From: Sulfuricurvum kujiense DSM 16994
GTDB lineage: Bacteria; Campylobacterota; Campylobacteria; Campylobacterales; Sulfurimonadaceae
NCBI RefSeq assembly: GCF_000183725.1
Contig: NC_014762.1
Location: 682,001 to 746,000 of the forward strand
Direction: 5' to 3'
Length of the DNA stretch: 64,000 nt
Shown: positions 5,288 to 21,600 of the stretch, one piece after another
Numbering within the stretch: position 1 is the stretch's first letter
Layout: each line of letters starts with the position of its first letter
Notes under the pieces: generated by a model
The model's input: only the letters and a program-made list of their open reading frames with translations
Databases searched by the model: none
Told to the model about the DNA's origin: nothing
Translations under genes and position numbers: made by a program

Positions 5288-5312
5288 AATCCTTTTATCA
5301 TAAAGGATGGGC

Positions 5313-6359
5313 ATGAGAATCTTCGTACTACTTTTTTGCTTACTAACCCTCGCCCAGGCGGCGCGCATCAGCGAAGTCGCTAATATCGTCGGTGTGCGTG
5401 ATAACCAGATTATCGGTTATTCGCTTGTCGTCGGTTTGAAAAAGACAGGTGACGGAACGACCTCTAAATTTACCCTCCAATCGATTGCCAATATGCTTAA
5501 AGCGATGAATATCGATATGAATCCGGTTGATATCAAATCTAAAAACGTTGCGGCGGTCGTCGTAACGGCAAGATTCGCCCCGTTCGCCCGACAAGGGGAT
5601 GCGTTTGATGTTACCGTTTCTTCTATCGGGGATGCGAAATCGCTCGAGGGGGGGACATTGCTGATGACCCCGCTTAAAGGGGTTGACGGAAAAATCTATG
5701 CATTAGCGCAAGGTTCGATCAGTATCGGCGGCAAAAATGAAAAAGGTGCCGGTGCCGAATCGCATCCGACGGTTGGGATGGTATACGGCGGCGGATTGGT
5801 GGAGCGTGAAATCACTCAAGACCTCTATCACCAAACCAATGCAACTTTGTCATTAAAAACAGCCAATTTTGAAAATGCTGTTAATATTCAAAATGCCATT
5901 AATGCCAAATACCGAGGAAGTGTCGCTTCTGCTGTCGATCCGCGAACTATCAGTTTGCAACTTCCAAAAAACAAATCGATGGTAGAGTTTTTAGCGGAAG
6001 TGCAAAACCTTAATATCGATTATGCGCAAGATCAAAAAATTATCATCAATGAGCGTACCGGTACTATTGTCGCCGGTGTTGATATTGAGGTAAAACCGGT
6101 AGTTGTTACCCAAGGGGATATGACGATTAAGATCCTTGCACAAAACGAGGTTTCAAAACCTGCCGGAAGTGTAGCCATGGACAAAAGTCTTGTAATAGGG
6201 CTGAATGAAAACGAAGTCTATACCGAAAAAGGGACGACGACGGTTGCCAATATCGCAAGGTCGCTTCAAAAACTAGGGGCTTCGCCAAAAGAGATGATTT
6301 CAATTTTCCAGGCGATGAAAAGTGCCGGAGCTATCTCAGTTGATTTGGATGTAATCTGA
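5313..6359 (+). CDS. flgI: Flagellar P-ring protein FlgI
   Basis: FlgI is secreted to the periplasm and builds the P ring around the flagellar rod in the peptidoglycan. I choose ATG 5313 (348 residues) because AAAGGA at 5302-5307 then has a 5-base spacing; the ATG at 5307 would overlap it. The signal peptide is MRIFVLLFCLLTLAQA-A. The family core RISEVANIVGVRDNQIIGYSL and the C-terminal block with VANIARSLQKLGASPKEMISIFQAMKSAGA are present. Its TGA overlaps the ATG of the flgJ-like gene by one base. Confidence 0.95.
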   Translation: MRIFVLLFCLLTLAQAARISEVANIVGVRDNQIIGYSLVVGLKKTGDGTTSKFTLQSIANMLKAMNIDMNPVDIKSKNVAAVVVTARFAPFARQGDAFDVTVSSIGDAKSLEGGTLLMTPLKGVDGKIYALAQGSISIGGKNEKGAGAESHPTVGMVYGGGLVEREITQDLYHQTNATLSLKTANFENAVNIQNAINAKYRGSVASAVDPRTISLQLPKNKSMVEFLAEVQNLNIDYAQDQKIIINERTGTIVAGVDIEVKPVVVTQGDMTIKILAQNEVSKPAGSVAMDKSLVIGLNENEVYTEKGTTTVANIARSLQKLGASPKEMISIFQAMKSAGAISVDLDVI

Positions 6360-6652
6360 TGGACATAGCAAACGTACAGTATCAAAAATCGCTTCCGACA
6401 ATAGGGACGAAAGACGGTGATAAAGCTTTGAGGGAGAAAACCGATCAATTCGAAGCCATCATTATCAAAATGATGCTCGATGAAGCGATGAAAGACGAGA
6501 AAAATGTCTTTACCAGTGCCAACGATCCCGGTGATAAAATTTTTAAATCGATGTACCGTGAAGAGTTATCCAACGCAAGTGCAGGGGGATTTGGGTTTTC
6601 TCAAATGCTTTTTGAAAACTTGAGTCAAAAGGGTGCAAAAACAGAGAAATAG
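6359..6652 (+). CDS. flgJ: FlgJ-like rod-binding protein (single domain)
   Basis: This 97-residue protein corresponds to the N-terminal rod-capping domain of FlgJ only: DQFEAIIIKMMLDEAMK, then GDKIFKSMYREELS and a glycine-rich GFGFSQMLFENL. The peptidoglycan-hydrolase domain of enteric FlgJ is absent, as is normal in Campylobacterota. It overlaps the flgI stop by one base (TGATG), indicating coupled translation. Its role is scaffolding of rod assembly in the periplasm. Confidence 0.88.
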   Translation: MDIANVQYQKSLPTIGTKDGDKALREKTDQFEAIIIKMMLDEAMKDEKNVFTSANDPGDKIFKSMYREELSNASAGGFGFSQMLFENLSQKGAKTEK

Positions 6653-6654
6653 AT

Positions 6655-6681
6655 TAAATTATTATTGGTTTTTGCCGATAT
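6655..6681 (+). promoter_or_regulatory. Sigma28 (FliA) promoter of flgM
   Basis: TAAA at 6655-6658, then 15 bases, then GCCGATAT at 6674-6681, almost identical to the FliA consensus TAAA-N15-GCCGATAA. It lies about 40 bases before flgM, which encodes the anti-sigma factor for FliA, so this closes a feedback loop. Confidence 0.85.
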
Positions 6682-6718
6682 GGTTGTATATACCATAAAT
6701 GGATAACAAGGATTCACC

Positions 6719-6925
6719 ATGATTTCAAGTGTGAACGGATCGCTGCGAAAAGCGACATATCAAGAACCGGCAGTAAAAAATAAAGAGCAGGAAAAACCGG
6801 CTCAATCTGTTACAAAACAAGGTGACACAAGCCGAATCGAAGAGTTGAAAGCCTCTATCGAGAAAGGGGAATACCGTGTCAATATCGAAGAGTTGGCGAA
6901 GCGTATCGCGCAAGAGCTGACCTAA
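6719..6925 (+). CDS. flgM: Anti-sigma28 factor FlgM
   Basis: The 68-residue protein has a disordered polar N-terminal half and the FlgM C-terminal signature SRIEELKASIEKGEYRVN followed by IEELAKRIAQEL, the helix that clamps FliA. FlgM holds sigma28 inactive until it is exported through the finished hook. It is small, like Campylobacter FlgM. It follows a sigma28 promoter, and flgN-like and flgK genes follow within one unit. Confidence 0.93.
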   Translation: MISSVNGSLRKATYQEPAVKNKEQEKPAQSVTKQGDTSRIEELKASIEKGEYRVNIEELAKRIAQELT

Positions 6926-6943
6926 CTAAAATAGGAGTTTATG

Positions 6944-7372
6944 ATGTTGTCTTATCAGTTGCAAAGTGCTATCAAAGATCTTGAAACTCTCATATCTTTG
7001 TCACTGGAAGATATTGACGATATCAAAGAAGCGAAGCACAATCCACAATTTGACCGCTTAGCAATCAAAGAAGAGAAGATCAAAAGCTTTGAACAAAAAA
7101 AAGCGATGATTGACCGCGAAATTTCAAAACTTATGACACAAAATCCGACTGCCCCTCTCTCTGAACTCTTAGACACCGAACAGCATCAACAGCTCGACGC
7201 ATTAAAAGAGAACCTCTCGCGCCTTCGCGAAGTCAATCAAAAATACGCAAAAATGGTTTTAAGCGTAGGTTCTTTTTATAATGCGCTGCTGGAACGGTTG
7301 GTTCCTACGCAGATGCAGGGTTATCAAAAAGTGGCTAGATCAGAAGCCTCATTTTTGGAAGTGCGGGCATAA
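6944..7372 (+). CDS. flgN: FlgN-like flagellar export chaperone
   Basis: About 142 residues, almost entirely helical with heptad-like leucine and charged residues (for example FEQKKAMIDREISKLM and LKENLSRLREVNQKY). Position between flgM and flgK is where FlgN, the export chaperone of the hook-associated proteins FlgK and FlgL, is found. Two ATGs stand in tandem; AGGAG at 6933-6937 is better spaced (6 bases) for the second, 6944. Primary sequence similarity to FlgN is weak, so the call depends on fold pattern and context. Confidence 0.7.
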   Translation: MLSYQLQSAIKDLETLISLSLEDIDDIKEAKHNPQFDRLAIKEEKIKSFEQKKAMIDREISKLMTQNPTAPLSELLDTEQHQQLDALKENLSRLREVNQKYAKMVLSVGSFYNALLERLVPTQMQGYQKVARSEASFLEVRA

Positions 7373-7373
7373 A

Positions 7374-9221
7374 ATGGCATCCATATTTAATGCGTTACAT
7401 ATCGGATACAGCGGGCTGAATGCGGCCCAAATCGGTATCGATACCACTGGGCATAATATCTCCAATGCCGAGACGGAAGGCTACACACGCCAACGTGTCG
7501 TTACGGCGGCTGCGGCACCGTTAGGGGTAGACCCGGGTCAGCGCGGCGGCGGAACTCAGGTCACGGATATCACACGTATTTTCGACAGTTTTGTTTATGC
7601 ACGATACACTACTGCTGCTCAAAATAAAGAATATTCCGATACGCTGAAAAAAAATCTGGAAGAACTTTCTACCTATTTTCCCGAAATCGATAAAGTCGGT
7701 ATCAAAGATGATTTGCAAAGCTATTATGATATGTGGCAGTCACTGGCCAATAATCCGAGTAATACATCGTTAAAAGTTGCTTTGGCACAGCAGACGCAAA
7801 CACTTACACAACATATTCAGCAGACGCGCAGTCAAATTTCTACGTTGCAAAACTCATTGAATGATCAAGTTAAAGTCAATGTCGATGATATCAATCGTAT
7901 CGGGCAACAAATTGCGGACTTAAATCTTGAAATAGACAAAGCAGAATCCGGAGGACTCAATCACGCAAATGATTTGCGCGACAAGCGGAATCAATTAGAG
8001 TTGTCCTTATCAAAACTAATTGACGCAAAAGTCTTTGTCGGCAACACAAAAACAAATAACGTCATTGATTCGAATATTGCCGAAAAAGAAGGCGGTTATG
8101 TTATTCAGGTAGCCGGATTTAACCTCGTCGACGGGGGCTCTTTTCATCCGATAGGCATTGACAGTACTTCGAATAAGAACGGATACAATGATTTATATTA
8201 TGAACGCCAAGACGGTGTAAGATTTCCGTTTGCTAATACTGTCACAGGGGGAAAACTCGGTGCTTTATTGGAATTGAGAGGTTCTACGATCGGAACAAAC
8301 GGAGAATTTGAAGACGGATTTTTGCAAGAGACGATTAATAATCTTGATTCTTTCGCCCAAGGCTTAATCGAATCGACAAACAATATTTATGCCCAAACCG
8401 CAACAACGTCAATGCAATCCAATATTCTGAATTTTTCAGATAATCAATCGATCCTGAGTACCGATGAAAATTTCAAAGCGGGAACTTTTGATTTAATTGT
8501 GTATGATATTGACGGCAATGAGGTCGGCCGTCGATCGATTTCAATCGATAACGGAACCTTAATAAACGATACTCCACAGACGAGCAACAGTATTGTCGGG
8601 CAGATTAACATATCCCAAGATGATAATAACGATAATAATTCGCTGAATGACATCGATGATATGCTTGTCGGGACATTTAACAATCAGCAGAATATTTTCC
8701 AAATTAATATTAAAGCAGCCTTTGAGGCACAAGGGTACAGTTTCGCTATTGAAGACCACGGGACAAATTTTGCCGGTGTGACAGGGGTAAATCGCTTTTT
8801 TGACGGGAATGATGCCAAAAGTATCGCGCTGAACGGTGACTTACAACATGATATGAGCAAGATCAAAGGGTTTAAATCTCCTGCAAACGGGGATAACCAA
8901 ACCGCTTTGGATATGGTACAGCAGCAATTCGCATCCGTCACCTTCGGTATCGGCAGATCCAAATCGACGGATACGATATACGGATATTTTGATAATCTGG
9001 TCACACGAGTAGGGACAAGAACAAATTCGGCCATAGTCTCAAATGATTCGATAACGGCGCAATTCAACTCAATAAAGCAAGAACAAGACTCAATAAGCAA
9101 AGTAAGTATCGATGAAGAGATGGCTAATCTGATCCGCTATCAGACCTCTTACGGTGCTGCGGCTAAAGTAATCACGACAATCGATCAAATGATGACTACC
9201 CTTTTGGGTATCAAGGCATAA
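7374..9221 (+). CDS. flgK: Flagellar hook-associated protein 1 FlgK
   Basis: Starts at ATG 7374 immediately after the flgN-like stop and encodes 615 residues. The N-terminal rod/hook-type motif SGLNAAQIGIDTTGHNISNA with GYTRQRV and the C-terminal helix SIDEEMANLIRYQTSYGAAA with VITTIDQMMTTLLG are diagnostic. FlgK forms the junction between hook and filament, and its termini form the coiled core. The central variable region is rich in Asn and Asp. The stop codon overlaps the start of an ABC permease gene. Confidence 0.95.
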   Translation: MASIFNALHIGYSGLNAAQIGIDTTGHNISNAETEGYTRQRVVTAAAAPLGVDPGQRGGGTQVTDITRIFDSFVYARYTTAAQNKEYSDTLKKNLEELSTYFPEIDKVGIKDDLQSYYDMWQSLANNPSNTSLKVALAQQTQTLTQHIQQTRSQISTLQNSLNDQVKVNVDDINRIGQQIADLNLEIDKAESGGLNHANDLRDKRNQLELSLSKLIDAKVFVGNTKTNNVIDSNIAEKEGGYVIQVAGFNLVDGGSFHPIGIDSTSNKNGYNDLYYERQDGVRFPFANTVTGGKLGALLELRGSTIGTNGEFEDGFLQETINNLDSFAQGLIESTNNIYAQTATTSMQSNILNFSDNQSILSTDENFKAGTFDLIVYDIDGNEVGRRSISIDNGTLINDTPQTSNSIVGQINISQDDNNDNNSLNDIDDMLVGTFNNQQNIFQINIKAAFEAQGYSFAIEDHGTNFAGVTGVNRFFDGNDAKSIALNGDLQHDMSKIKGFKSPANGDNQTALDMVQQQFASVTFGIGRSKSTDTIYGYFDNLVTRVGTRTNSAIVSNDSITAQFNSIKQEQDSISKVSIDEEMANLIRYQTSYGAAAKVITTIDQMMTTLLGIKA

Positions 9222-10015
9222 TGCCGTTAGTTAGTATATCCGTACTGATCGGAGTGATCCTTTTTTCATTTATCGGGCCGTATTTTTATCCGGCCGATCC
9301 GCTTTATTTAGATCCGAAATCCATACTGCTTCCTCCTTCGATAAGTCATTGGTTCGGTACCGACCGATTGGGGCGCGATTTATTGGCACGCTTGATGGAG
9401 GGGGGGCAGATATCACTTATTATCGGCTTTATGAGCGCTTTTATCTCAACGCTGATAGGGCTTATTTATGGTGTGAGTGCCGCATTTCTACGCGGAGGGT
9501 ATGACAAAGTTTTCATCGTTATGGTTGATTTGTTCTTGACGTTTCCTACGCTCTTTTTGCTATTAACATTAGTCAGTTATGTGAACGCATCTGTTTGGGT
9601 ACTGATTATGATTATTTCGGTGACGGGATGGATGGGAACCGCACGGTTGATCCGTTCTGAAAGTTTTGCGATTGAGACAAAGCCGTTTATTAGAATACTC
9701 ACTATCGGAAACGTGCATCCGCTTAAAATAATGTTCAAATATTATGCCCCATTATTGGCTCCGATCGTTTTGGTGAGCTTTACCTTCGGAGTAGGGGGGG
9801 CGATTTTGGCGGAATCGGGACTTTCTTTTTTGGGTCTGGGTATCGTTGCGCCGCAAATGAGTTGGGGAAGCATCCTCAGCGGCGGCAAAGAGGTAATCGA
9901 CATCGCATGGTGGGTTAGTTTCTTCCCCGGTTTGATGATCTTTATCGTTACCTTTGCATTGATGAATATATCAAATGCCTTGCAGTCTCGTATGAATCAG
10001 AAAGAGCTTAGATAA
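9221..10015 (+). CDS. Orphan DppC/OppC-type peptide or nickel ABC transporter permease
   Basis: The 264-residue membrane protein has an N-terminal helix and segment HWFGTDRLGRDLLARLMEGG, the conserved pre-helix motif of DppC/OppC permeases, then about five more helices. The EAA-like loop reads AESGLSFLGLGIVAPQMSWGSIL, also typical. Such permeases pair with a DppB partner, ATPases and a binding protein, none of which is nearby. Its ATG overlaps the flgK stop (TAATG), so it is translated with the flagellar genes. Substrate cannot be told. The gene overlaps by 8 bases with the convergent yfiR-like gene. Confidence 0.85.
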   Translation: MPLVSISVLIGVILFSFIGPYFYPADPLYLDPKSILLPPSISHWFGTDRLGRDLLARLMEGGQISLIIGFMSAFISTLIGLIYGVSAAFLRGGYDKVFIVMVDLFLTFPTLFLLLTLVSYVNASVWVLIMIISVTGWMGTARLIRSESFAIETKPFIRILTIGNVHPLKIMFKYYAPLLAPIVLVSFTFGVGGAILAESGLSFLGLGIVAPQMSWGSILSGGKEVIDIAWWVSFFPGLMIFIVTFALMNISNALQSRMNQKELR

Positions 10016-10541
10016 GCCGAGCCATTTCCAAAAGGCTGTCAGGAAATGAATATCGGTTTTCTCGAAGTGCTTTGGAATTGATCAAAATAACTGGCGCCCG
10101 TTCCATTTGAATAGAGAGTAAAAGACCGTCATCCCCTAGCTTATCCGCATCATAAAGGGCCGTGATCGCTCCCGATGATCCGACCGCATTGTGAACCTTT
10201 TTAAGCTGAGACAGGCTTGCTTTGAGCGCATAAATCAGATGATACGCGTTGGATGCATCGAGTTTATCGAACGGAAGAGTAGTTACTGTAATCGGATGTC
10301 CGTTTACCTTTCCGTTAAATTTAGTCATTAGGATTTTTGTACACGATTCTGCAGTATCTTCATCTCCCCGCTCATAGGCAATTAAAATTTTAAGGGGTGA
10401 TTTGCCATGAGAAACAAGCCCTTTTTCAAGCATAGCAATTTTCGGTAATAAAGATAGATGTGTATCGAGCAAAAACGGATCATACGTTGCACTCCAGCCG
10501 AGCGTGTTGAAAAAAAGTAATAGACTGGTAATGTATTTCAA
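10008..10541 (-). CDS. YfiR-like periplasmic protein
   Basis: The 177-residue protein has a signal peptide (cleaved near GWSA, residue 18) and an alpha/beta body. The C-terminal block PVILINSKALRENRYSFPDSLLEMARLI (split here only by reading) resembles the ending of the YfiR/DUF4154 family, in which a strand with Asn is followed by a helix ending LLxLAR. YfiR of Pseudomonas is a periplasmic repressor of the diguanylate cyclase YfiN. Here its start overlaps the stop of the TonB-dependent receptor gene by four bases, and a membrane GGDEF-EAL protein is encoded at the other end of the locus. I infer that it links receptor state to the c-di-GMP enzyme. Confidence 0.6.
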   Translation of the reverse strand: MKYITSLLLFFNTLGWSATYDPFLLDTHLSLLPKIAMLEKGLVSHGKSPLKILIAYERGDEDTAESCTKILMTKFNGKVNGHPITVTTLPFDKLDASNAYHLIYALKASLSQLKKVHNAVGSSGAITALYDADKLGDDGLLLSIQMERAPVILINSKALRENRYSFPDSLLEMARLI

Positions 10542-12601
10542 AATGTTCCCCTTACGGTCACTAAGTAGGTACGTCCGGTTGCTGGGTAATCATCATTAAA
10601 GGTTCCCTTTGGACTTGGATAAAGTTCAGTTTCATTGAACATATTTTTTAGTGTCAATTGGACTTCACTGTGAAAACGAGGGAGTTTATACCCGATAGAG
10701 GTATCGACGATACCGATGGCTTTCATATCGGCTCTCGAATCGCCTATTTCTCTTGGCGTTGCACTTTGCCATCGCCCGGAAAGGGATGTATACCAGGTTT
10801 CATTGAGAGTTTGAGTGATAAATCCTCGTGCCGTATCAGACGGTGCATTGGGAAGGGTCACCCCATTGCCGTCTTCTGCCCAAATATGGGTATAGGCAGC
10901 GTAAAAAGAGGTATCATCATAGCGTTTTCGCCACTCTGTTTCAAATCCCTTAATGAGACTTTTTGATCCGTTAATATATTCGTAACGTGTTGCCGGTGTA
11001 TTATATTGCAGATAGATCTGGTCCTTGTTATCGAGGCGGAATAGATTGAATGAGAGAGTATGTTCCGTTTCAAACTTATGGATGTATTGGGTCTCATACG
11101 CCATGACGGTTTCAGGGTGCAGGTCAGGGCTCCCCCAACGGGCTCTATTATTGAGGGTAAACATTTCCTGCCATGAGGGATTTCTATGGGCGCGTGAGAT
11201 GGAAAACTTAATCAGGTTATTCGGATCAAGTGTATAAACGGCCGCAAGACGCGGATCGATTTGTGTCGCCAATCCGTTACGGTGATCGAGCGTGAGGGAA
11301 GCATAGCCGATTAGATTCGTACTTAGAGGACGTTCATACGTGATGTATGCCGATTGGTTGTTGATAGAGCCATCGGGATTGAAAAATGGGAGTGTCGTTG
11401 AGTAATCACTCAAGCCGCTTCCGCTGTCTCTGTCGGTAGTGAGCGTTTTTTCTGAGGCAACACTGCTCCATGTAGCGTTGAGCCCGACAGTCATATCTCC
11501 TCCGTATACGGAACCGGTAAGGGTATTATTGAGCTGATAGGTTCGGATAAAGGCTTCATGAATACCGTAAAAACCGTCCAAATATGTGACAACAGTTGTT
11601 GGTGGAGTCAATGAGGGGAGTCGTAATCCTTCGGGTGCCAGAAGCTGGTGACTGGTAAAGCTGTCTTGTGTCATCGCTGCTTGAAACGTTCCCTCAAATT
11701 CTCCCGCACGGTAATGGGCACCGCTGCGAATGTGCCATTGATCAACGTTGTAGTGATCCCCATCAAAGGATAAGGCATAATTGATCCCTCCGCCTGAGCC
11801 GTGTCGATAGGTGGAGAACCGTCCGTCGGCAAAAAAAGCCCCTTTACTGATGCTGGCCGATACCATGGTTGCATCCGTTTCTGATGGGGCATTGCCTGAG
11901 CGAGATAGTGATGCGTTGGCTGCACCCAGAAGATTATTGGAAAGACCGTCTTTTCCATACGAGAGGGCAAGATTATCGTGTACGGTATAAATGTCCGCCG
12001 CAAATGTGAAATCGTTATCTCTCATGGCAAAAGAACCGCCGACTTTACCGGTACGGTTGTTTCCCGCAGAGGTAAACCAGCGACCGTTATCACCGGTAGA
12101 CATTTCCGCTTTATAGGTTGTGATGATGATCGATCCGGCATAGCCGTAATGACCGTTACTGTAACTTCCCGGACCTCTAACAACTTCAATCCGTTTTATC
12201 ATGTCGATCGGCATACTCAGATAGGCGGTATAGCCGTCAAAAAAAAGGTCATTGACTTCGACACCGTCAACGACGAGCTTGCTTTGACCGTAGGCTACCG
12301 GATTGGAACCGCGAAATACGGGGTTGAAGAGGGACAGGTTGTCACTGGCGATATTGACACCGGCGACCAAACTAAGAGCCTCTTTGAGGGAAGATGCTCC
12401 GGCACGGGAGAGCTCTTCACCGTCAAATACACTCATGACATAAGGGAGATAATCGATATTGGCACGTTGATCTTTTGCACTCTGTGCGATGGTATTGATC
12501 TCGTCGGTGAGATTCGATAAAAGGTTGGAATTCGTTTCTGCTTCAGCCGAAAGAAGCGAAAAAGGGAGTAATAATAAAGCGAGAGAAAATCGGGTTTTCA
12601 T
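10538..12601 (-). CDS. TonB-dependent outer membrane receptor
   Basis: The 687-residue protein has a signal peptide ending near LSAEA, an N-terminal extension, a plug domain (LPYVMSVFDGEELSRAGASS, VAGVNIAS, VFRGSNPVAY, VVDGVEVND, IKRIEVVRGPGSYSNG) and a beta-barrel rich in aromatic residues. It ends in VRGTF with the terminal Phe of outer membrane proteins. It would import a scarce ligand across the outer membrane with TonB/ExbBD energy. The substrate is unknown; lacking siderophore genes and lying between a LuxI-like synthase and a YfiR-like protein, a signal or its precursor is possible. Both ends overlap neighbours by four bases. Confidence 0.92.
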   Translation of the reverse strand: MKTRFSLALLLLPFSLLSAEAETNSNLLSNLTDEINTIAQSAKDQRANIDYLPYVMSVFDGEELSRAGASSLKEALSLVAGVNIASDNLSLFNPVFRGSNPVAYGQSKLVVDGVEVNDLFFDGYTAYLSMPIDMIKRIEVVRGPGSYSNGHYGYAGSIIITTYKAEMSTGDNGRWFTSAGNNRTGKVGGSFAMRDNDFTFAADIYTVHDNLALSYGKDGLSNNLLGAANASLSRSGNAPSETDATMVSASISKGAFFADGRFSTYRHGSGGGINYALSFDGDHYNVDQWHIRSGAHYRAGEFEGTFQAAMTQDSFTSHQLLAPEGLRLPSLTPPTTVVTYLDGFYGIHEAFIRTYQLNNTLTGSVYGGDMTVGLNATWSSVASEKTLTTDRDSGSGLSDYSTTLPFFNPDGSINNQSAYITYERPLSTNLIGYASLTLDHRNGLATQIDPRLAAVYTLDPNNLIKFSISRAHRNPSWQEMFTLNNRARWGSPDLHPETVMAYETQYIHKFETEHTLSFNLFRLDNKDQIYLQYNTPATRYEYINGSKSLIKGFETEWRKRYDDTSFYAAYTHIWAEDGNGVTLPNAPSDTARGFITQTLNETWYTSLSGRWQSATPREIGDSRADMKAIGIVDTSIGYKLPRFHSEVQLTLKNMFNETELYPSPKGTFNDDYPATGRTYLVTVRGTF

Positions 12602-13137
12602 TGTTGCTCTTTTAGGTTTAAAAGGACGGGAAGGCGTTCTGCACCAATTAGATATTGAATCGGACCTATCGGTCGGTATGGAAGAGATGCATAGTTGAGA
12701 AGACGCAAAAAACTAGGTTCAACTGCTCCAATGAGTTGAAGTATGTTATGCTCAGAGGCAATTTGATTGATCTTATGTTGCATGATTTGTAGAACCTCTA
12801 TGGTTTTTTTGAATGTTCTGTAGGTTGCGGCGACTGTAATCCGCGAAATTTCGGCAGTTCTTTCATTATGTACAAGTTTTTCTGAATCAATGCGCATAAC
12901 ATTAAGTGTCGGTAAACCTACCGTGTCATTTGGAAGAACAAGGCGGCATGAACCAACCAAAATATCTTCATTCCAAACACCTAACAAAAGCGAGTATTCA
13001 TCATAGTGGTCATACTCGATCTCTTTGCCATCATCTCTGGGAGCAAAAAATTTGAATTCATCTACAAAAATAGAATACCGTTGATGCAAAATAGCGTGAC
13101 GCTCTTCTTCTGTAAATGCTGTTTTACATTCTAACAA
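12598..13137 (-). CDS. LuxI/FeeM-superfamily acyltransferase (putative signal or N-acyl amino acid synthase)
   Basis: A 179-residue protein starting at TTG 13137-13135 with AAGGA five bases upstream. The residues conserved in LuxI acyl-homoserine-lactone synthases line up: Arg20 and Phe24 (RYSIFVDEF), Asp43 and Asp46 (EYDHYDEY), Arg65 in VGSCRLVLP, and Glu96/Arg99 in EISRITVA. The equivalent LuxI positions are R24, F28, D45, D48, R69, E97 and R100; the usual Trp34 is Phe here. The family also includes FeeM N-acyl amino acid synthases and exosortase-associated acyltransferases, so the product cannot be named. Its stop overlaps the start of the TonB-dependent receptor gene, so both are made together. 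Confidence 0.65.
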   Translation of the reverse strand: MLECKTAFTEEERHAILHQRYSIFVDEFKFFAPRDDGKEIEYDHYDEYSLLLGVWNEDILVGSCRLVLPNDTVGLPTLNVMRIDSEKLVHNERTAEISRITVAATYRTFKKTIEVLQIMQHKINQIASEHNILQLIGAVEPSFLRLLNYASLPYRPIGPIQYLIGAERLPVLLNLKEQQ

Positions 13138-13290
13138 TAATATCCTTTTTTAATACTTATCTAAAGATAGTCAATAAATAGTTAATGGGTGCTGAAAATA
13201 ATAAAAATACAGGCTAAATTCAATCTTTAATAGGATAAAATGACATAACGTATGAATATATATTCGAAATAGATTTAATAAGGCTTTTTA

Positions 13291-15204
13291 ATGATATTGC
13301 TTTCAAAATCACGTCTTTCCTATAAAATAGTAGGATCATTGATTTTGATTTTTCTACTGACTTTTATGACACTTGGAATGGTAGTCAGTATGGTATTTGA
13401 GAACACCATTTTGGTTTCGGAAAAGCAAAAAGCTGATTTGTTATTGCGAACCATTGAAAAACCGCTTCAAATCGCCCTCTATCTCAAATTTTATGATCAG
13501 ATTGAAGAGAAAGTGTCTCCTGTGGTTTCGGTACCGGATGTGACAGAGTTGGTTATTTCCGATCAGAATAAAAAACAATTATATAGCTATAAAAGCAAAG
13601 ATAATATGATATCCAGACACGAAGCGATAAGTATGATTCACGAGATCAAAGAACCGACGAGCGGGCAATTGATGGGAACAGTCACGTTACGTTACAGCGA
13701 TTTGGCGTATGATGAAACACGTCAATCCATTCACAAAATCGTTTACGGTGTCGGAGCAAGTATCTTTGTGATTTTTTTCGTAGCCGTATGGTGGGTCCGC
13801 TTTCTTCTCTCCCCGTTGACTAATATTGCTAAAAAGGTTCGCTATTACAAGCCCGGAGATCAAATGGTTTTTGAAGAAGATGGGAGTGTTGAGATCGAAC
13901 AGATTGTTACGGCGTTTAATGCGATGCAAAAAACAACTCAAACGTATCTTGAACAAATTGAGGCGATGAATGCTTCATTGGAAATTACCGTTCAAGAGAA
14001 AACCCATGAATTGGAAAACCAGTATTATCTTGATAGGCTCACGGGCTTGCCGAATCGATATCGATTGCAAGAGAGACTGGAACAGGGAGAGACGGTTGCC
14101 CTGGCGATTGTGAATGTGGATGATTTTAAAGAGGTTAACGATTTCTTTGGGATCTCTATCGGCGATGAAATGTTGATACAAATCGGAATATGGCTCCAAG
14201 AACTCTCCGGCAGTTGTTATCGTTTAGGGGGCGATGAGTTTGCATTGATTTTCAATGAGCTTTCTCAAAAAGAGCTGGAACACCGGCTAAACATGCTGAT
14301 AAAGTTTTTGGATGAAAAAACATTTATGGTCAAAGAGGAGAGTTTGAATATTCGTGTGACTATCGGTGTAGCGATCGGAAATGATAAAGTGCTAACACAG
14401 GCGGATATTGCTTTGCATCACGCTAAAGAGAACAAAAAACAGATCGCATTTTATAATGAAGACGAAGGGGTTGAAGAACATTACCGGACGAATTTGACAA
14501 TGGCCTCACATGTACGAAGAGCCTTGTTTGACCGTCGAATTATCTGCTACTATCAACCTATAGTCAATATTGAGACGGGAGATATCGTTAAGTATGAAAC
14601 GTTAGTGCGAATGATCGATGAAGAGGGAAATATCGTACCGCCGATGCAGTTTCTCCCTATTGCGAAACGAACCAAACTCTATCCGCAAATTACGTTGGAA
14701 GTGGTTTATCAGGCATGTACCCTTTTCGCTTCCCGCGATGAAGAGTTTTCGATCAATCTTTCAGACAGTGATATACGTAACCCTCATACGGTTAGTGAGA
14801 TCATCAAAACAATTATCGAAACGGGGACGGCATCTCGGATAGTATTTGAGATTCTAGAATCCGAGGGGATAGAAAACTACGATGAGGTGACACGCTTTAT
14901 TGCCCAGGTGAAAGCGCTGGGGGCAAAAATCGCTATTGATGATTTTGGGACAGGGTACTCCAATTTTGAAAACATATTGAAATTGGGGGTTGATTATATC
15001 AAGGTAGACGGATCATTGATCAGAGAGATTGCCGCTAATCCGCGTCATCGTATTATTGTTGAAACAATTATTGATTTTGCGAAGAAAATTGATGCTAAAA
15101 CGATTGCTGAGTTTGTTTCGGATGAGACAATTTACAACACTATCGAAGAGATGGGTGTCGATTACTCACAAGGTTATTTTACAGGTAAACCTGCTTTCCT
15201 ATAG
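13291..15204 (+). CDS. Membrane-anchored GGDEF-EAL c-di-GMP enzyme with periplasmic sensor
   Basis: 637 residues: membrane helix at about 12-36, a periplasmic segment of about 110 residues, second helix at about 150-172, a HAMP-like linker, a coiled coil (MNASLEITVQEKTHELEN), GGDEF at about 250-400 and EAL at about 405-637. The cyclase motif RLGGDEFAL is intact, and no RxxD inhibitory site is visible before it. In the phosphodiesterase part EAL reads ETL, but other metal or catalytic residues are present (NLSDSD, FEILESEG, AIDDFGTGYSNF, YIKVDG, IAEFV, SQGY). Both activities are possible. Layout resembles YfiN plus an EAL domain. It is divergent from the LuxI-like/TonB/YfiR operon across 153 bases. 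Confidence 0.93.
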   Translation: MILLSKSRLSYKIVGSLILIFLLTFMTLGMVVSMVFENTILVSEKQKADLLLRTIEKPLQIALYLKFYDQIEEKVSPVVSVPDVTELVISDQNKKQLYSYKSKDNMISRHEAISMIHEIKEPTSGQLMGTVTLRYSDLAYDETRQSIHKIVYGVGASIFVIFFVAVWWVRFLLSPLTNIAKKVRYYKPGDQMVFEEDGSVEIEQIVTAFNAMQKTTQTYLEQIEAMNASLEITVQEKTHELENQYYLDRLTGLPNRYRLQERLEQGETVALAIVNVDDFKEVNDFFGISIGDEMLIQIGIWLQELSGSCYRLGGDEFALIFNELSQKELEHRLNMLIKFLDEKTFMVKEESLNIRVTIGVAIGNDKVLTQADIALHHAKENKKQIAFYNEDEGVEEHYRTNLTMASHVRRALFDRRIICYYQPIVNIETGDIVKYETLVRMIDEEGNIVPPMQFLPIAKRTKLYPQITLEVVYQACTLFASRDEEFSINLSDSDIRNPHTVSEIIKTIIETGTASRIVFEILESEGIENYDEVTRFIAQVKALGAKIAIDDFGTGYSNFENILKLGVDYIKVDGSLIREIAANPRHRIIVETIIDFAKKIDAKTIAEFVSDETIYNTIEEMGVDYSQGYFTGKPAFL

Positions 15205-15278: not shown

Positions 15279-16502
15279 TTACAGTTTGTCATGATCGATA
15301 GGTATATGACTCAGCTCCAATGTATAAAGGATGAGGGTAATATCGATTTTTTCAAAGTTATTGCATAGAAGCCTTTTTAAATATTCTCTTTCGGAGTATT
15401 CTGCCTTTTTAAAACTGGACAAAAATTTTCCTTTGTTTGAAACGACAAGATCTGTGATATCTTTATCCATTTTGATATCTTTCATTACACTTTTGATGTC
15501 TGTTTCAAAAAGAGCTCCAAGCATAGAGAACATGCCGGCAAGGTATGCTTTATCTTTTTCACTGTGATGGGCTTCTTCTTCCATCCGTTCGGCTCTTCGG
15601 ATCGCAATATTCATGATGCTTTCGGATATCGGGTTTTTGGAAACTTCGGCATAGAGGTATAACAGAAGCCATCGTAGCAGTTTGTCTCTTCCAAGCAGTG
15701 TAATGATCTGTGTGATCGACTCGACTTTGGTGTCAAATTTTCCGTGGTTATTGATAAATTTGATCAATTTGTAGGACAAATCGGCTCTTTGCTTGATATA
15801 GGATTCTATCTCGTGGGTAGAGCCTTCGTTTTTAATCAATTTTATTAGATGCAGAATAATGATTTGGGTAGCATCTTTATATCGGTCCATCTCTACCACT
15901 TCAGGTTTGTGGAGATGGTATCCCTGAAAGAGGTCAAACCCCATTTCTTTATAATATTTATACTCTTCTTCCGTTTCAATTTTTTCAGCGAGTACTCTGA
16001 TTCCCATTTGTTTTATTTTGGACATAACGTTTTTTAAATTCTCATCGTCTGCGGCTAGAATATCCATTTTTAGAATATGGATATATTTTAAGATAGGGGT
16101 GAATTTTTTGATCATTTTCGCACTGCAGTCAAAATCGTCAATAGCGATTTTAAACCCTCGTTTGTGGTACTGTTTGATTTTGGCAATAACCGGCTCACTC
16201 AAATCCGTTGTTTCTAAAATCTCCAGTACAAACCGGTCTTTATCTAAAATATCGATAATTCCCGATGTAAAGATATGTTCGTCGAGATTGATGAATGCTA
16301 TTCCGTCTTTGCCTAAAAGCTCATCGATATTTATATTCGTCAGAGTATTTAAAAGAACTTGGGAAGTGGCACGAATATTCGTTGGAAATTCTTTGATTCC
16401 ATGTGCATGATCTCTAAAAAGCAGTTCATAGGCAAAAACTTTGCCGTTTCGGTTGAATATTTTTTGTTTTGCCAAATATACGGTATTCAAAAGGGATATC
16501 AC
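15279..16502 (-). CDS. EAL-HDOD signalling protein (YuxH family type)
   Basis: The 407-residue cytoplasmic protein has an N-terminal EAL-like domain (about 1-205) and a C-terminal HDOD domain (about 210-400). EAL reads ELL (YELLFR), and the signature loop is AIDDFDCSAK instead of DDFGTGYS. NLDE, LEILET, LAEKIE and FQGYHLHKP correspond to other EAL motifs. Proteins of this architecture usually act as c-di-GMP receptors or regulators rather than active phosphodiesterases; C. jejuni CheVAW-region CdpA-like or YuxH proteins are examples of the layout. Activity is uncertain. It is convergent with the preceding GGDEF-EAL gene, which groups c-di-GMP proteins in this area. Confidence 0.85.
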   Translation of the reverse strand: MISLLNTVYLAKQKIFNRNGKVFAYELLFRDHAHGIKEFPTNIRATSQVLLNTLTNINIDELLGKDGIAFINLDEHIFTSGIIDILDKDRFVLEILETTDLSEPVIAKIKQYHKRGFKIAIDDFDCSAKMIKKFTPILKYIHILKMDILAADDENLKNVMSKIKQMGIRVLAEKIETEEEYKYYKEMGFDLFQGYHLHKPEVVEMDRYKDATQIIILHLIKLIKNEGSTHEIESYIKQRADLSYKLIKFINNHGKFDTKVESITQIITLLGRDKLLRWLLLYLYAEVSKNPISESIMNIAIRRAERMEEEAHHSEKDKAYLAGMFSMLGALFETDIKSVMKDIKMDKDITDLVVSNKGKFLSSFKKAEYSEREYLKRLLCNNFEKIDITLILYTLELSHIPIDHDKL

Positions 16503-18613: not shown

Positions 18614-18645
18614 GCAGTAACTATGTAATCTTGGTCGTACATGTA

Positions 18646-21600
18646 ATGAAAATAAAAAATTATAATGTTCTCTCTACTCTCTACAATAACGGACGGACAA
18701 TTGTCTATCAAGCTATTTCGCCAAATGGCGACATAGTAGCAATCAAGACAGTCCTCGATGACAGTGACCAAAATTATGCCAATAAGTTATACCGCGAATT
18801 TTCCATTGCAAAAAATCTAAACAATAAATTTACGGATCATTATATTGAATTATTGGAAGAGGACAAGATATATTTGGTCAAGTCTTTCGAATCGGGTAAA
18901 AATTTATCAGACGTAATCCCCTCTGATGGGATGGACATAGATACTTTTATTGCGTATGCGATATCGATCACGGAAGCGATAGACTATATACATCAAAACA
19001 GCGTTCTCCACCTAGATTTGAATCCGGGAAATATCATTTGCAATGAAGTCCAAAAATCGATCAAATTGCTTGATTTCGGTGAAAGTATCTCCAATATTAA
19101 TATCAATAAATCTCCCCAAAAAAATATTCAAATAACGGGGGGTGCCGCATATTCTGCACCGGAACAAACCGGATTATCGAATCAAAATCTGGATGAACGA
19201 AGTGATCTCTACTCACTGGGTGTCGTTTTTTATGAAATGCTCAGCGGGAGACTGCCGTTTGAAGGGGAAAATACTATCCAAATGGCACATGCTCATTTAG
19301 CACAGATCGCTGAAGATTTGCATACAATAAAACCCTCTATTCCTATCGTTTTATCAAATATTGTTAAAAAACTGCTGGCAAAAGATAAGCATGAGCGATA
19401 TCAGCATGCATTTAGTCTAAAACACGATTTAATACAATTTTCCCAAGACCCTTCGGCCGATTTTCTCATCGATAGTCAAGATATATCGGATAAATTGATT
19501 TATCCTCAAAAATTATACGGCAGGGACCAAGAGTTAGCGTTAGTCAGCAACAAAATAATGTCGGTTATCGGCGACAAGCCTAAACTCATGATGATCAGCG
19601 GATATTCCGGTATCGGGAAGTCTTCATTTATTAGCGAATTAAGTCCGGTTGTGCTTAGAAAAAACGGTTATTTTGTAAAAGGGAAGTTTGATCAATACAA
19701 TCGTACGACTTCGTATGTTGCGTTTGTTCAAATTTTTATGAATTTAATCAATATCATAAATAGCATGCCGCCAGATTTAAAACAAAAGAAAATCAATGAA
19801 CTGATTGAATTTTTGGGCGAAAGTAAAAATGCGTTAATTAAAATTATCCCTGAATTAAAAGTATTTTTCAAAGTAGACCATACCCCTATTGTCGAGCAGG
19901 CACAGTTAAAAAATCAGCTATTTATTGCGGTTGAACGCTTTTTCGGCTTTTTTGCCTCACAAGAGCATCCCCTCGTCGTTTTTTTAGATGATATGCAATG
20001 GGCCGATTTGGCATCGCTTGAGATATTAGAATTGATCTATGCTTCAAGCAAACTGGAGAGTTTTTTAATTATCGGCGCATACAGAAGCAATGAAGTCTCA
20101 TTAACACATCCTATGAAGTTGTCGCTTGATAATATTGCCAAAAAAATAGGACATGTTGAAGATATCGAACTCCTGCCGCTGGATATAAGTGCCGTCAATC
20201 AGTTATTACGTGACATGTTGAAGAAAGAAGATGTTGAAGCACTCGGACAGTTACTGATTCAAAAAACAGAAGGCAATCCATTTTTTCTGAAACAATTTAT
20301 TTACACTATGGCAAAGCGTGATTTATTGCGATTCAATAACGATACGCGCTCTTGGGAATGGAATATTGAACAAATCAAACATGAAGATTTGACAAACAAT
20401 GTTATTGACCATCTTGTATCAAAAATCAGTACGATGTCCGAAGATGCCCAAAACTTTATTAAAACGGCATCGGTACTCGGAGATACATGTGATATGGAGG
20501 TGATCTCAACGTTAAGCCAAAGTGAGCCGGAGAGTATTGATCACATTGTCAGTGAAGTATTTTATGAAGGTATGATGGAAGTCTCTACCGATGAAAGCAT
20601 GATCGGCATCAAGATGGTTCAATATTGCCATTTTGTGCATGATAAAATCAGACAGGCTGCCTATTTAATGTTGAGCTTAGAAGAAAAGCAGCAGACCCAT
20701 CTAAAAGTTTTAAAATATTTTCTGATGCAAAAAGAACAGTCGCCAAAAGCGATTCTCGGGACGGCAAAACATATTATAGAAGTTGTAGATCTTATAAAAG
20801 AAGAGGAAGCCGAATTTGTTTTGAGCATCCTCAGTCAAGCCTCTCATCTCGCAAAAGAATCTTTGGCATACGAAGAGGCGATTAAGTACGCTCAAGCCGC
20901 GATTTCCCTTTTCCCTGAGAACAGTTGGCGTGAAAATTATGAGATCACCTGTTCGATTTATCTAAATCTCCTGGAATCATTAAGTCAAGCACGAAGATAT
21001 CAAGAGGCTTTAGTGCTTTTTGAACAATTGCTCTCTAATGGGCTTTTGAAAAAAATCGATATCGCAAAAATATACAATCTTCGTCTGACCTATCACTTTT
21101 CACAAGGGCTGCTCTCAGAAGCCATCGAGGATGGACGCCAAGCACTGCGGGTTCTCAATCAAGAGATTCCGAACGATACGTCAGAGTTACTGCTTTTGAA
21201 AAAGGATGAGATCGATTGGCTGAGCTCAAATATCAAATCGATTGAAGATCTTCAATACCTAAATGAGATGGAAGATGAGACTATTGAACTGTGCATGAAT
21301 ATTCTTGTCAATATGGGAATTCCCGCATTTGTCAGCAGACAAGATATGTTCGGTGTCGTAACGCTTAGAATGGTTCGTCTTTCTTTTCTATACGGAAATT
21401 GTGATGTTTCCCCATATGGATATATGCTCTGCGGAATGATTATCGGTGCGGGACTTAGACACTATGAAGAGGGATACCGATACGGGCAGGTTGCAATAGC
21501 GCTTCAGGAAAAGTTTGATAACAAAGCTATTGAATGCAAACTGCTGCGTGTATACGGAGCGTATGTCGCCTCATGGGTACAACCTCATGAACAAACATTG

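Follow-up and report, generated by a model that had tools for sequence, protein, structure and literature searches.

A gene cluster linking a LuxI/FeeM-like acyltransferase to a TonB receptor, a YfiR-like protein and a GGDEF-EAL enzyme in Sulfuricurvum kujiense and its relatives: a candidate acyl-signal relay

What might a putative acyl-signal synthase be doing beside an outer-membrane receptor and an enzyme of cyclic di-GMP (c-di-GMP) metabolism? The question is raised by four genes at positions 10008–15204 of a stretch of 64,000 nucleotides from Sulfuricurvum kujiense DSM 16994 (hereafter the window), which covers 682001–746000 of contig 4 (NC_014762.1) in a 2.82-Mb genome of 5 contigs. With gene starts as set by the open reading frame (ORF) caller, the minus strand encodes a LuxI/FeeM-like GNAT acyltransferase and putative signal synthase (12598–13137, 179 aa, TTG start), a TonB-dependent outer-membrane receptor with plug and barrel (10538–12601, 687 aa) and a YfiR/HmsC-like (DUF4154) protein that is probably periplasmic (10008–10541, 177 aa, TTG start; leader judged by eye). 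Divergent from this operon, on the plus strand, lies the gene for a membrane-bound sensor GGDEF-EAL protein (13291–15204, 637 aa). The layout given in a preliminary description of this DNA proved exact: the four ORFs lie where it placed them, and by the ORF calls and the DNA itself the overlaps are precisely 4 bases, ATGA between acyltransferase and receptor (12598–12601, minus strand) and TTGA between receptor and YfiR-like gene (10538–10541, minus strand).

The same description claimed that the four genes form one signalling locus, and named beforehand the search for this neighbourhood in other genomes as a check. We made that comparison in a phylum sample of 397 genomes from 68 genera (G codes denote genomes and L codes fetched loci). 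The acyltransferase was matched in 30 genomes belonging to nine genera, and 8–17.5 kb were fetched around each of the 29 matches other than the window. The receptor gene is directly adjacent in 26 of the 30, the window included, across 8 genera and 3 families; the count includes L040, which the ORF caller missed and which was read by hand. No adjacent receptor was seen in L042, L051 (a contig end), L053 and L056. The cluster is truncated by contig ends in L032, L045 and L047, as is the acyltransferase start in L057. A profile search found acyltransferase-type matches in 42 of the 397 genomes, the 12 added being the remnants in G254 and G129 plus ten weaker ones, of which the two scanned (G369, G210) are FeeM-domain proteins of another kind. 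Within the family, the profile search matched 42 of 151 genomes; leaving aside this search's weak matches and G471, which is divided between two contigs, 16 further loci were examined. Fifteen of them hold all four genes; the sixteenth is cut off by the end of its contig. In 14 of the 15 complete loci the acyltransferase and receptor genes are neighbours, the GGDEF-EAL gene stands between them in G404 (L175), and that gene is split into two ORFs in two of the 15, as it also is in L039.

Within the window's genus the GGDEF-EAL gene is transcribed divergently; at those loci of other genera that show all four genes, it comes last and is oriented like the rest. In the window's genus an ATP-binding cassette (ABC) permease gene flanks the cluster at 9/9 loci, with flgK next to the permease at 8/9; a search of nine loci from five other genera turned up neither FlgI, FlgK nor the permease, so the linkage is not merely the frozen gene order of one genus. 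A chance neighbourhood was rejected on the same grounds, the set being kept across genera and without the genus's flanking genes in those nine loci. Genome comparison gives good support to the reading of the four genes as one signalling locus. Among the open-licence literature matches listed, no title or abstract start describes the set. Plasmid searches returned distant relatives in 1 and 5 records; of the two records examined, an Alteromonas region has none of the trio of receptor, YfiR-like and GGDEF-EAL genes among its listed genes, and a Rhizobium record carries no annotation.

Linkage can also be viewed from the other members of the cluster. The YfiR-like subfamily, delimited as places scoring at least 160 bits with the YfiR-like alignment, numbers 32 places in the 397 genomes, and an intact acyltransferase stands in the cluster at 24. 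Contig ends interrupt the cluster at two more (G386, G374). Another two (G254, G129) have an open trio of receptor, YfiR-like and GGDEF-EAL genes with a decayed acyltransferase upstream, and for a further two (G367, G292) the acyltransferase is located on a different contig; the remaining two of the 32 are taken up below. A receptor tree of 57 rows (without L047, a fragment; L164, at a contig end; L168, probably the same locus as L031, their contigs being of equal length; and L169) was built by a quick search and has some long branches at which joins may be false; it unites 48 receptors in one clade with a Shimodaira–Hasegawa-like approximate likelihood ratio test (SH-aLRT) value of 99. The acyltransferase is in the cluster for 39 of these 48, the other nine being three paralogues from the window's genus and six cases in which the acyltransferase is decayed, relocated or missing, two of each.

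Which part of the cluster is then out of the ordinary? PF13689, the DUF4154 family, was matched at 46 places in 33 of the 397 genomes; two of these places are linked loci (G389 C90, G176 C20), and 24 other regions were fetched (20 + 4). A TonB receptor, recognised by our own profile or by Pfam, lies at most three genes away in 23 of the 24 (exception L108). A six-frame search that did detect its positive control, L040, found the acyltransferase in none of them. Twelve partner enzymes were scanned, comprising eight with GGDEF only, two with GGDEF-EAL and two histidine kinases, and eight of the twelve carry CHASE8. The suggestion that a TonB receptor here takes the place of the lipoprotein YfiB therefore holds in that the receptor is present in the operon, but it was rejected as a peculiarity of the locus, because receptor and YfiR commonly occur together where there is no synthase. 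It is the synthase, not the trio, that is the unusual part.

In G254 and G129 only remnants of the acyltransferase are left (L142:7900–8650; L143:7900–8400), upstream of receptor, YfiR-like and GGDEF-EAL genes that are all open. Ratios of nonsynonymous to synonymous substitution (dN/dS) between these two genomes and intact relatives are 0.07 and 0.10 for the receptor, 0.07 and 0.23 for the YfiR-like gene and 0.08 and 0.13 for the GGDEF-EAL gene, against 0.08–0.11, 0.10–0.28 and 0.06–0.12 in three pairs with intact synthases; all of these are rough values, with synonymous distances of about 0.2 to 2.4, many above 1, and with part of each path predating the loss of the synthase. On this measure the orphaned trios appear to resemble the intact-synthase pairs, a receive-only pattern like that of quorum-sensing listeners. 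In G367 and G292, where the trio is on another contig, the acyltransferase instead adjoins a gene for a leucine carboxyl methyltransferase family member (PF04072; pairs at L053:6957–8424 and L056:7755–9283), a neighbour that would fit a free carboxylate in the product of the acyltransferase.

In Pfam the window's acyltransferase is over the cut-off of PF13444 (43.6 bits, cut-off 22.4, E 5e-11). It misses all three profiles with which comparison had been proposed: FeeM PF21926 (20.2 bits, cut-off 27, E 5.5e-4), LuxI PF00765 (13.0 bits, cut-off 24, E 0.077) and the exosortase-associated acyltransferase TIGR03694 (68.2 bits, cut-off 111.95, E 7e-19). Some relatives do pass the first two, the LuxI cut-off being exceeded by four of ten scanned singly (L037, L041, L043, L049) and the FeeM cut-off by one of the ten (L043, 29.4 bits). 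At E<=0.01 the aligned proteins match PF13444 and TIGR03694 in 27/27 cases each, LuxI in 20/27 and FeeM in 18/27. When the profile was compared with solved structures, the best relatives were acyl-homoserine lactone (AHL) synthases (3p2f, E 4e-5; LasI, E 1e-3), with plain GNAT acetyltransferases, among others, coming after them at E 0.005. The sole relative found in a scan of genome contigs is an acyltransferase from a Campylobacterales metagenome bin with 67% identity to the window protein.

The core of LuxI is formed by Arg, Asp, Asp, Glu and Arg residues with established roles. Across 27 aligned proteins, the window's included, R20, E41, D43, D46, E96, S98, R99, R107 and F143 are invariant. 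All seven residues first taken as the LuxI core (Arg20, Phe24, Asp43, Asp46, Arg65, Glu96 and Arg99) are present in the window protein, but Phe24 does not extend to the family, position 24 being Phe in 8/27, and the Arg65 column holds Arg in 7/27, Arg sitting by eye one column away in most of the others because of a one-residue indel. The profile comparisons place the acyltransferase near LuxI and FeeM within the GNAT superfamily. The window protein is formally not a LuxI, being below the PF00765 cut-off and without a LuxR domain (PF03472) in any of 31 genomes of the genus, its own among them, in a search whose Escherichia coli control was detected. A LuxR partner was rejected on that result. 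An exosortase reading was rejected as well, the exosortase family PF09721 being over cut-off in 0/31 genomes of the genus, with no match in the window's own genome and one match below cut-off in G411.

Such an enzyme might alternatively modify a component of the cell itself, either one of the relay proteins or a lipid of the membrane (an ornithine lipid, for example), while the trio senses some unrelated external compound. Models of L-ornithine N-alpha-acyltransferases do match, weakly and far below cut-off, two of them in 5/27 and 4/27 members, and a poor structure model of the enzyme resembles general GNAT acetyltransferases at the level of fold. We nevertheless regard this explanation as improbable, given the invariance of the LuxI/FeeM-like core, the relatives that pass the LuxI and FeeM cut-offs and the lack of a second acyltransferase in the cluster. 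The relay kept after synthase loss also argues against an enzyme devoted solely to modifying it, which should not decay while its relay is retained.

Both receptor domains, PF00593 and PF07715, are over cut-off in Pfam; the top family match is to TonB-dependent siderophore receptors, below cut-off, and a sequence search for solved relatives gave colicin I receptors, which match it only over residues 33–165 and 41–165. Five TonB_C matches over cut-off were found in the window's own genome. The small protein is below the PF13689 cut-off (19.9 bits, cut-off 24.9, E 8.6e-4); 6/25 aligned YfiR-like proteins match that family at E<=0.01, and one linked gene (G389 C90) is over its cut-off. Compared profile to profile with ten DUF4154 proteins that are over cut-off, the YfiR-like family matched at 94.6% over 168 columns (E 7e-8), with controls at 0.1% for the same query and 0.3% and 0.5% for another, and its sequence profile matched no solved structure. 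These profile matches favour a YfiR-like identity for the small protein (10008–10541).

The fourth protein departs from what had been proposed. The comparison had been with YfiR and YfiN, a repressor and cyclase pair; the small protein fits the first of these, but the enzyme differs from a simple cyclase of the YfiN type. GGDEF and EAL domains are both over cut-off in Pfam. In the window protein the GGDEF motif is exact (14227–14241, plus strand, residues 313–317) and the EAL motif reads ETL (14596–14604, plus strand, residues 436–438), and the other catalytic residues lie downstream of it. Across 23 such proteins, the first motif reads SGDEF in 12, GGDEF in 4, GSDEF in 3, SADEY in 2, SSDEF in 1 and AGDEF in 1. 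E-x-L, N489, E520, D550, D551, K571, E607 and Q627, residues with recognised roles in EAL catalysis, are kept in 23/23. Because the EAL site is intact throughout while the GGDEF motif drifts, the output is likelier to be hydrolysis of c-di-GMP, and cyclase activity is uncertain. The N-terminal input region, membrane and HAMP-like segments included, aligns at 97.5% with that of seven YfiR-linked proteins carrying CHASE8, which we take to be the YfiN-type domain.

In a second alternative, the acyltransferase would make a surface-active or metal-binding N-acyl compound serving nutrition or life on surfaces; the receptor would take it back up and the relay would signal that uptake, with the loop controlling scavenging or attachment rather than communication between cells. 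N-acyltyrosines made by FeeM-like enzymes are biosurfactants according to an excerpt of PMC4897644, and both the siderophore-receptor match and the colicin I receptors point in this direction. Against it, there is a single biosynthetic gene only, the trios stay open and constrained in the two genomes with decayed synthases, and a tightly linked c-di-GMP enzyme exceeds the needs of uptake. We consider this alternative unlikely, although less so than the modification of a cell component.

The reading that we prefer takes the four genes as one conserved signalling unit. The acyltransferase would make a small acylated molecule from an acyl carrier, most likely an N-acyl amino acid or a compound resembling an acyl-homoserine lactone. 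Once outside the cell, this molecule would bind to the TonB receptor dedicated to it and would probably be imported. Either the receptor with its ligand bound or the ligand after import might then alter the YfiR-like protein in the periplasm, which in its altered state would release or engage the YfiN-like periplasmic domain of the GGDEF-EAL protein, and the level of c-di-GMP would change in consequence, more likely through hydrolysis. The idea that the cell itself makes the acyl ligand of a dedicated relay from outer membrane to cytoplasm combines two steps that we infer, and we lean, by a small measure, towards its being true.

Several observations weigh against that reading. Both structure models, one of the acyltransferase and one of the YfiR-like protein, were made from the window protein and L031 only and are of low confidence. 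For the acyltransferase, with a mean predicted local distance difference test (pLDDT) score of 48.9 in AlphaFold, the Foldseek matches are GNAT folds and the best E-values belong to ordinary GNAT acetyltransferases. FeeM (2g0b) follows at ranks 24, 29, 31 and 43, first at E 4.7e-4, and no LuxI-type synthase is among the best 50 matches. An unrelated fold, named at the outset as a finding that would speak against a synthase, was thus not seen, but the model is so poor that the GNAT-fold matches are too weak to count as proof. The YfiR-like model (mean pLDDT 44.6) has YfiR as its top Foldseek match at E 0.016, with none at E<=0.001. Among the 25 Pfam families listed for the 23 GGDEF-EAL proteins CHASE8 is absent from all, and one has CHASE5. 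The YfiR of Pseudomonas, in an excerpt of PMC4887326, binds L-tryptophan (L-Trp; dissociation constant (Kd) 77 mM) and vitamin B6 (Kd 35 mM) at the YfiB pocket; in the same excerpt the authors doubt that this binding alone disturbs the contact with YfiB. Binding so weak would indicate only a ligand-sized pocket in the fold.

The linkage itself has gaps that belong on the same side of the balance. At two of the 32 YfiR-like places, G378 (L212) and the second copy in G186 (L214), there is no acyltransferase nearby, and the acyltransferases of G074 and G295 are in genomes without any match to the YfiR-like profile. The window's own genome carries an acyltransferase-free paralogue of receptor, YfiR-like and GGDEF-EAL genes (L216:5151–9606; C4:1498150–1502605), which has relatives in G338 and G133. 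A tree of the acyltransferases comprised 45 rows, without L168 and L169. Distances among acyltransferases correlate with those among receptors (r 0.949, 39 loci, 0/2000 permutations as high), a pattern that may reflect shared ancestry alone. As a separate observation, the pair of receptor and YfiR-like genes at L214:7560–11824 (G186 C7) belongs to the same subfamily and is the second in a genome where the full set is present too, and its divergent gene of 492 codons weakly matches the GGDEF-EAL profile.

These gaps lead to the third alternative, in which the genes lie together mainly through common descent or convenience, the acyltransferase being a hitchhiker beside a trio that senses the environment on its own. 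Trios without the acyltransferase, one of them in the window's genome, speak for it, as do the other DUF4154 loci examined, 23/24 with a receptor and 0/24 with the acyltransferase. The linkage nevertheless recurs in 8 genera and 3 families, without the genus flanks in the nine loci of five other genera, and the linked receptors and YfiR-like proteins form a largely separate subfamily, the main exception being the acyltransferase-free paralogues of the genus. We judge the hitchhiker explanation quite improbable.

A quorum-sensing architecture in which a LuxI/FeeM-type acyl signal is received at the outer membrane by a dedicated TonB receptor instead of by LuxR in the cytoplasm, with a YfiR-like relay setting c-di-GMP, would be new, and the genomes with decayed synthases would be its natural listeners; we put this forward tentatively and at somewhat short of an even chance. 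It was at first remarked that no acyl signal system is known to be described in Campylobacterota, which our data do not establish; FeeM-domain proteins of other kinds occur in the phylum. An AHL-like compound named cjA has reportedly been found in Campylobacter jejuni, so that the remark may not hold. For this branch of Campylobacterota, a defined acyl signal would follow from the proposed relay. The relay, if real, would also join acyl-signal quorum sensing with YfiR-type control of c-di-GMP, two fields that have so far been apart, hint at the purpose of the TonB receptors beside YfiR-like genes, and assign a task to synthases of a type whose physiological role PMC4897644 describes as still not clear. 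Confirmed by experiment, it would be a new mode of bacteria sensing one another.

The surroundings of the cluster add some context. A divergent intergenic region of 153 bases (13138–13290) separates the two transcription units, and a 7-locus alignment of it showed no strongly conserved block or clear site. Upstream of the operon, flagellar genes for FlgI and FlgK (Pfam) occupy 5307–9221. Adjoining the GGDEF-EAL gene, 15279–16502 encodes an EAL protein with an HDOD match slightly below cut-off, and 18631–24234 encodes a protein of 1867 residues with protein kinase, AAA ATPase, TPR, GAF, GGDEF and EAL matches.

How, finally, does the locus compare with known systems? The synthase-less clusters of TonB receptor, DUF4154 protein and cyclase or kinase share the type of trio and differ in having no acyltransferase. 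NspS–MbaA of Vibrio cholerae joins a periplasmic binding protein to a membrane GGDEF-EAL enzyme; no TonB receptor is known to be linked to it, and its periplasmic protein is not known to be related. As described in PMC8967002, this receptor pair senses a small molecule and makes or breaks c-di-GMP in response, which resembles the scheme proposed here, whereas its ligand is a polyamine and not an acyl compound.

With LuxI/LuxR the locus shares the synthase superfamily and its core residues, and it differs in that no LuxR domain was found in the genus, reception is predicted at the outer membrane and in the periplasm, and output is predicted to run through c-di-GMP. The FeeM-type synthases are likewise of the same superfamily; PMC4897644 reports a conserved catalytic Glu in them, and Glu96 of the present family is invariant. 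A tie between such synthases and c-di-GMP has been suggested earlier, and Nas343 and Nas354 carry a C-terminal PilZ domain (both from the same excerpt of PMC4897644), which the window protein, itself below the FeeM cut-off, does not have; here the link to c-di-GMP would be a separate receptor relay. NasP synthase is activated by cyclic AMP (cAMP), again according to that excerpt (PMC4897644). In G210 we observed a FeeM domain over cut-off and a cyclic-nucleotide-binding domain within one protein (L145:7318–8250).

YfiBNR is alike in its outer-membrane input, its YfiR-like protein and a membrane c-di-GMP enzyme whose input region aligns with CHASE8 input regions. Unlike YfiBNR, the window operon has a TonB receptor and not the OmpA-like lipoprotein YfiB, its enzyme family keeps the EAL site and not GGDEF, and an acyltransferase is linked. 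A disulfide has a role in Pseudomonas YfiR, as known in part from the excerpt of PMC4887326; among 25 YfiR-like proteins of the present family, 16 have no cysteine after residue 22, seven have one and two have two, which means that the family does not have a disulfide switch in common. We regard the system as a YfiR-type relay, which is of a known kind, with a putative LuxI/FeeM-like synthase of its own, which is the new part.

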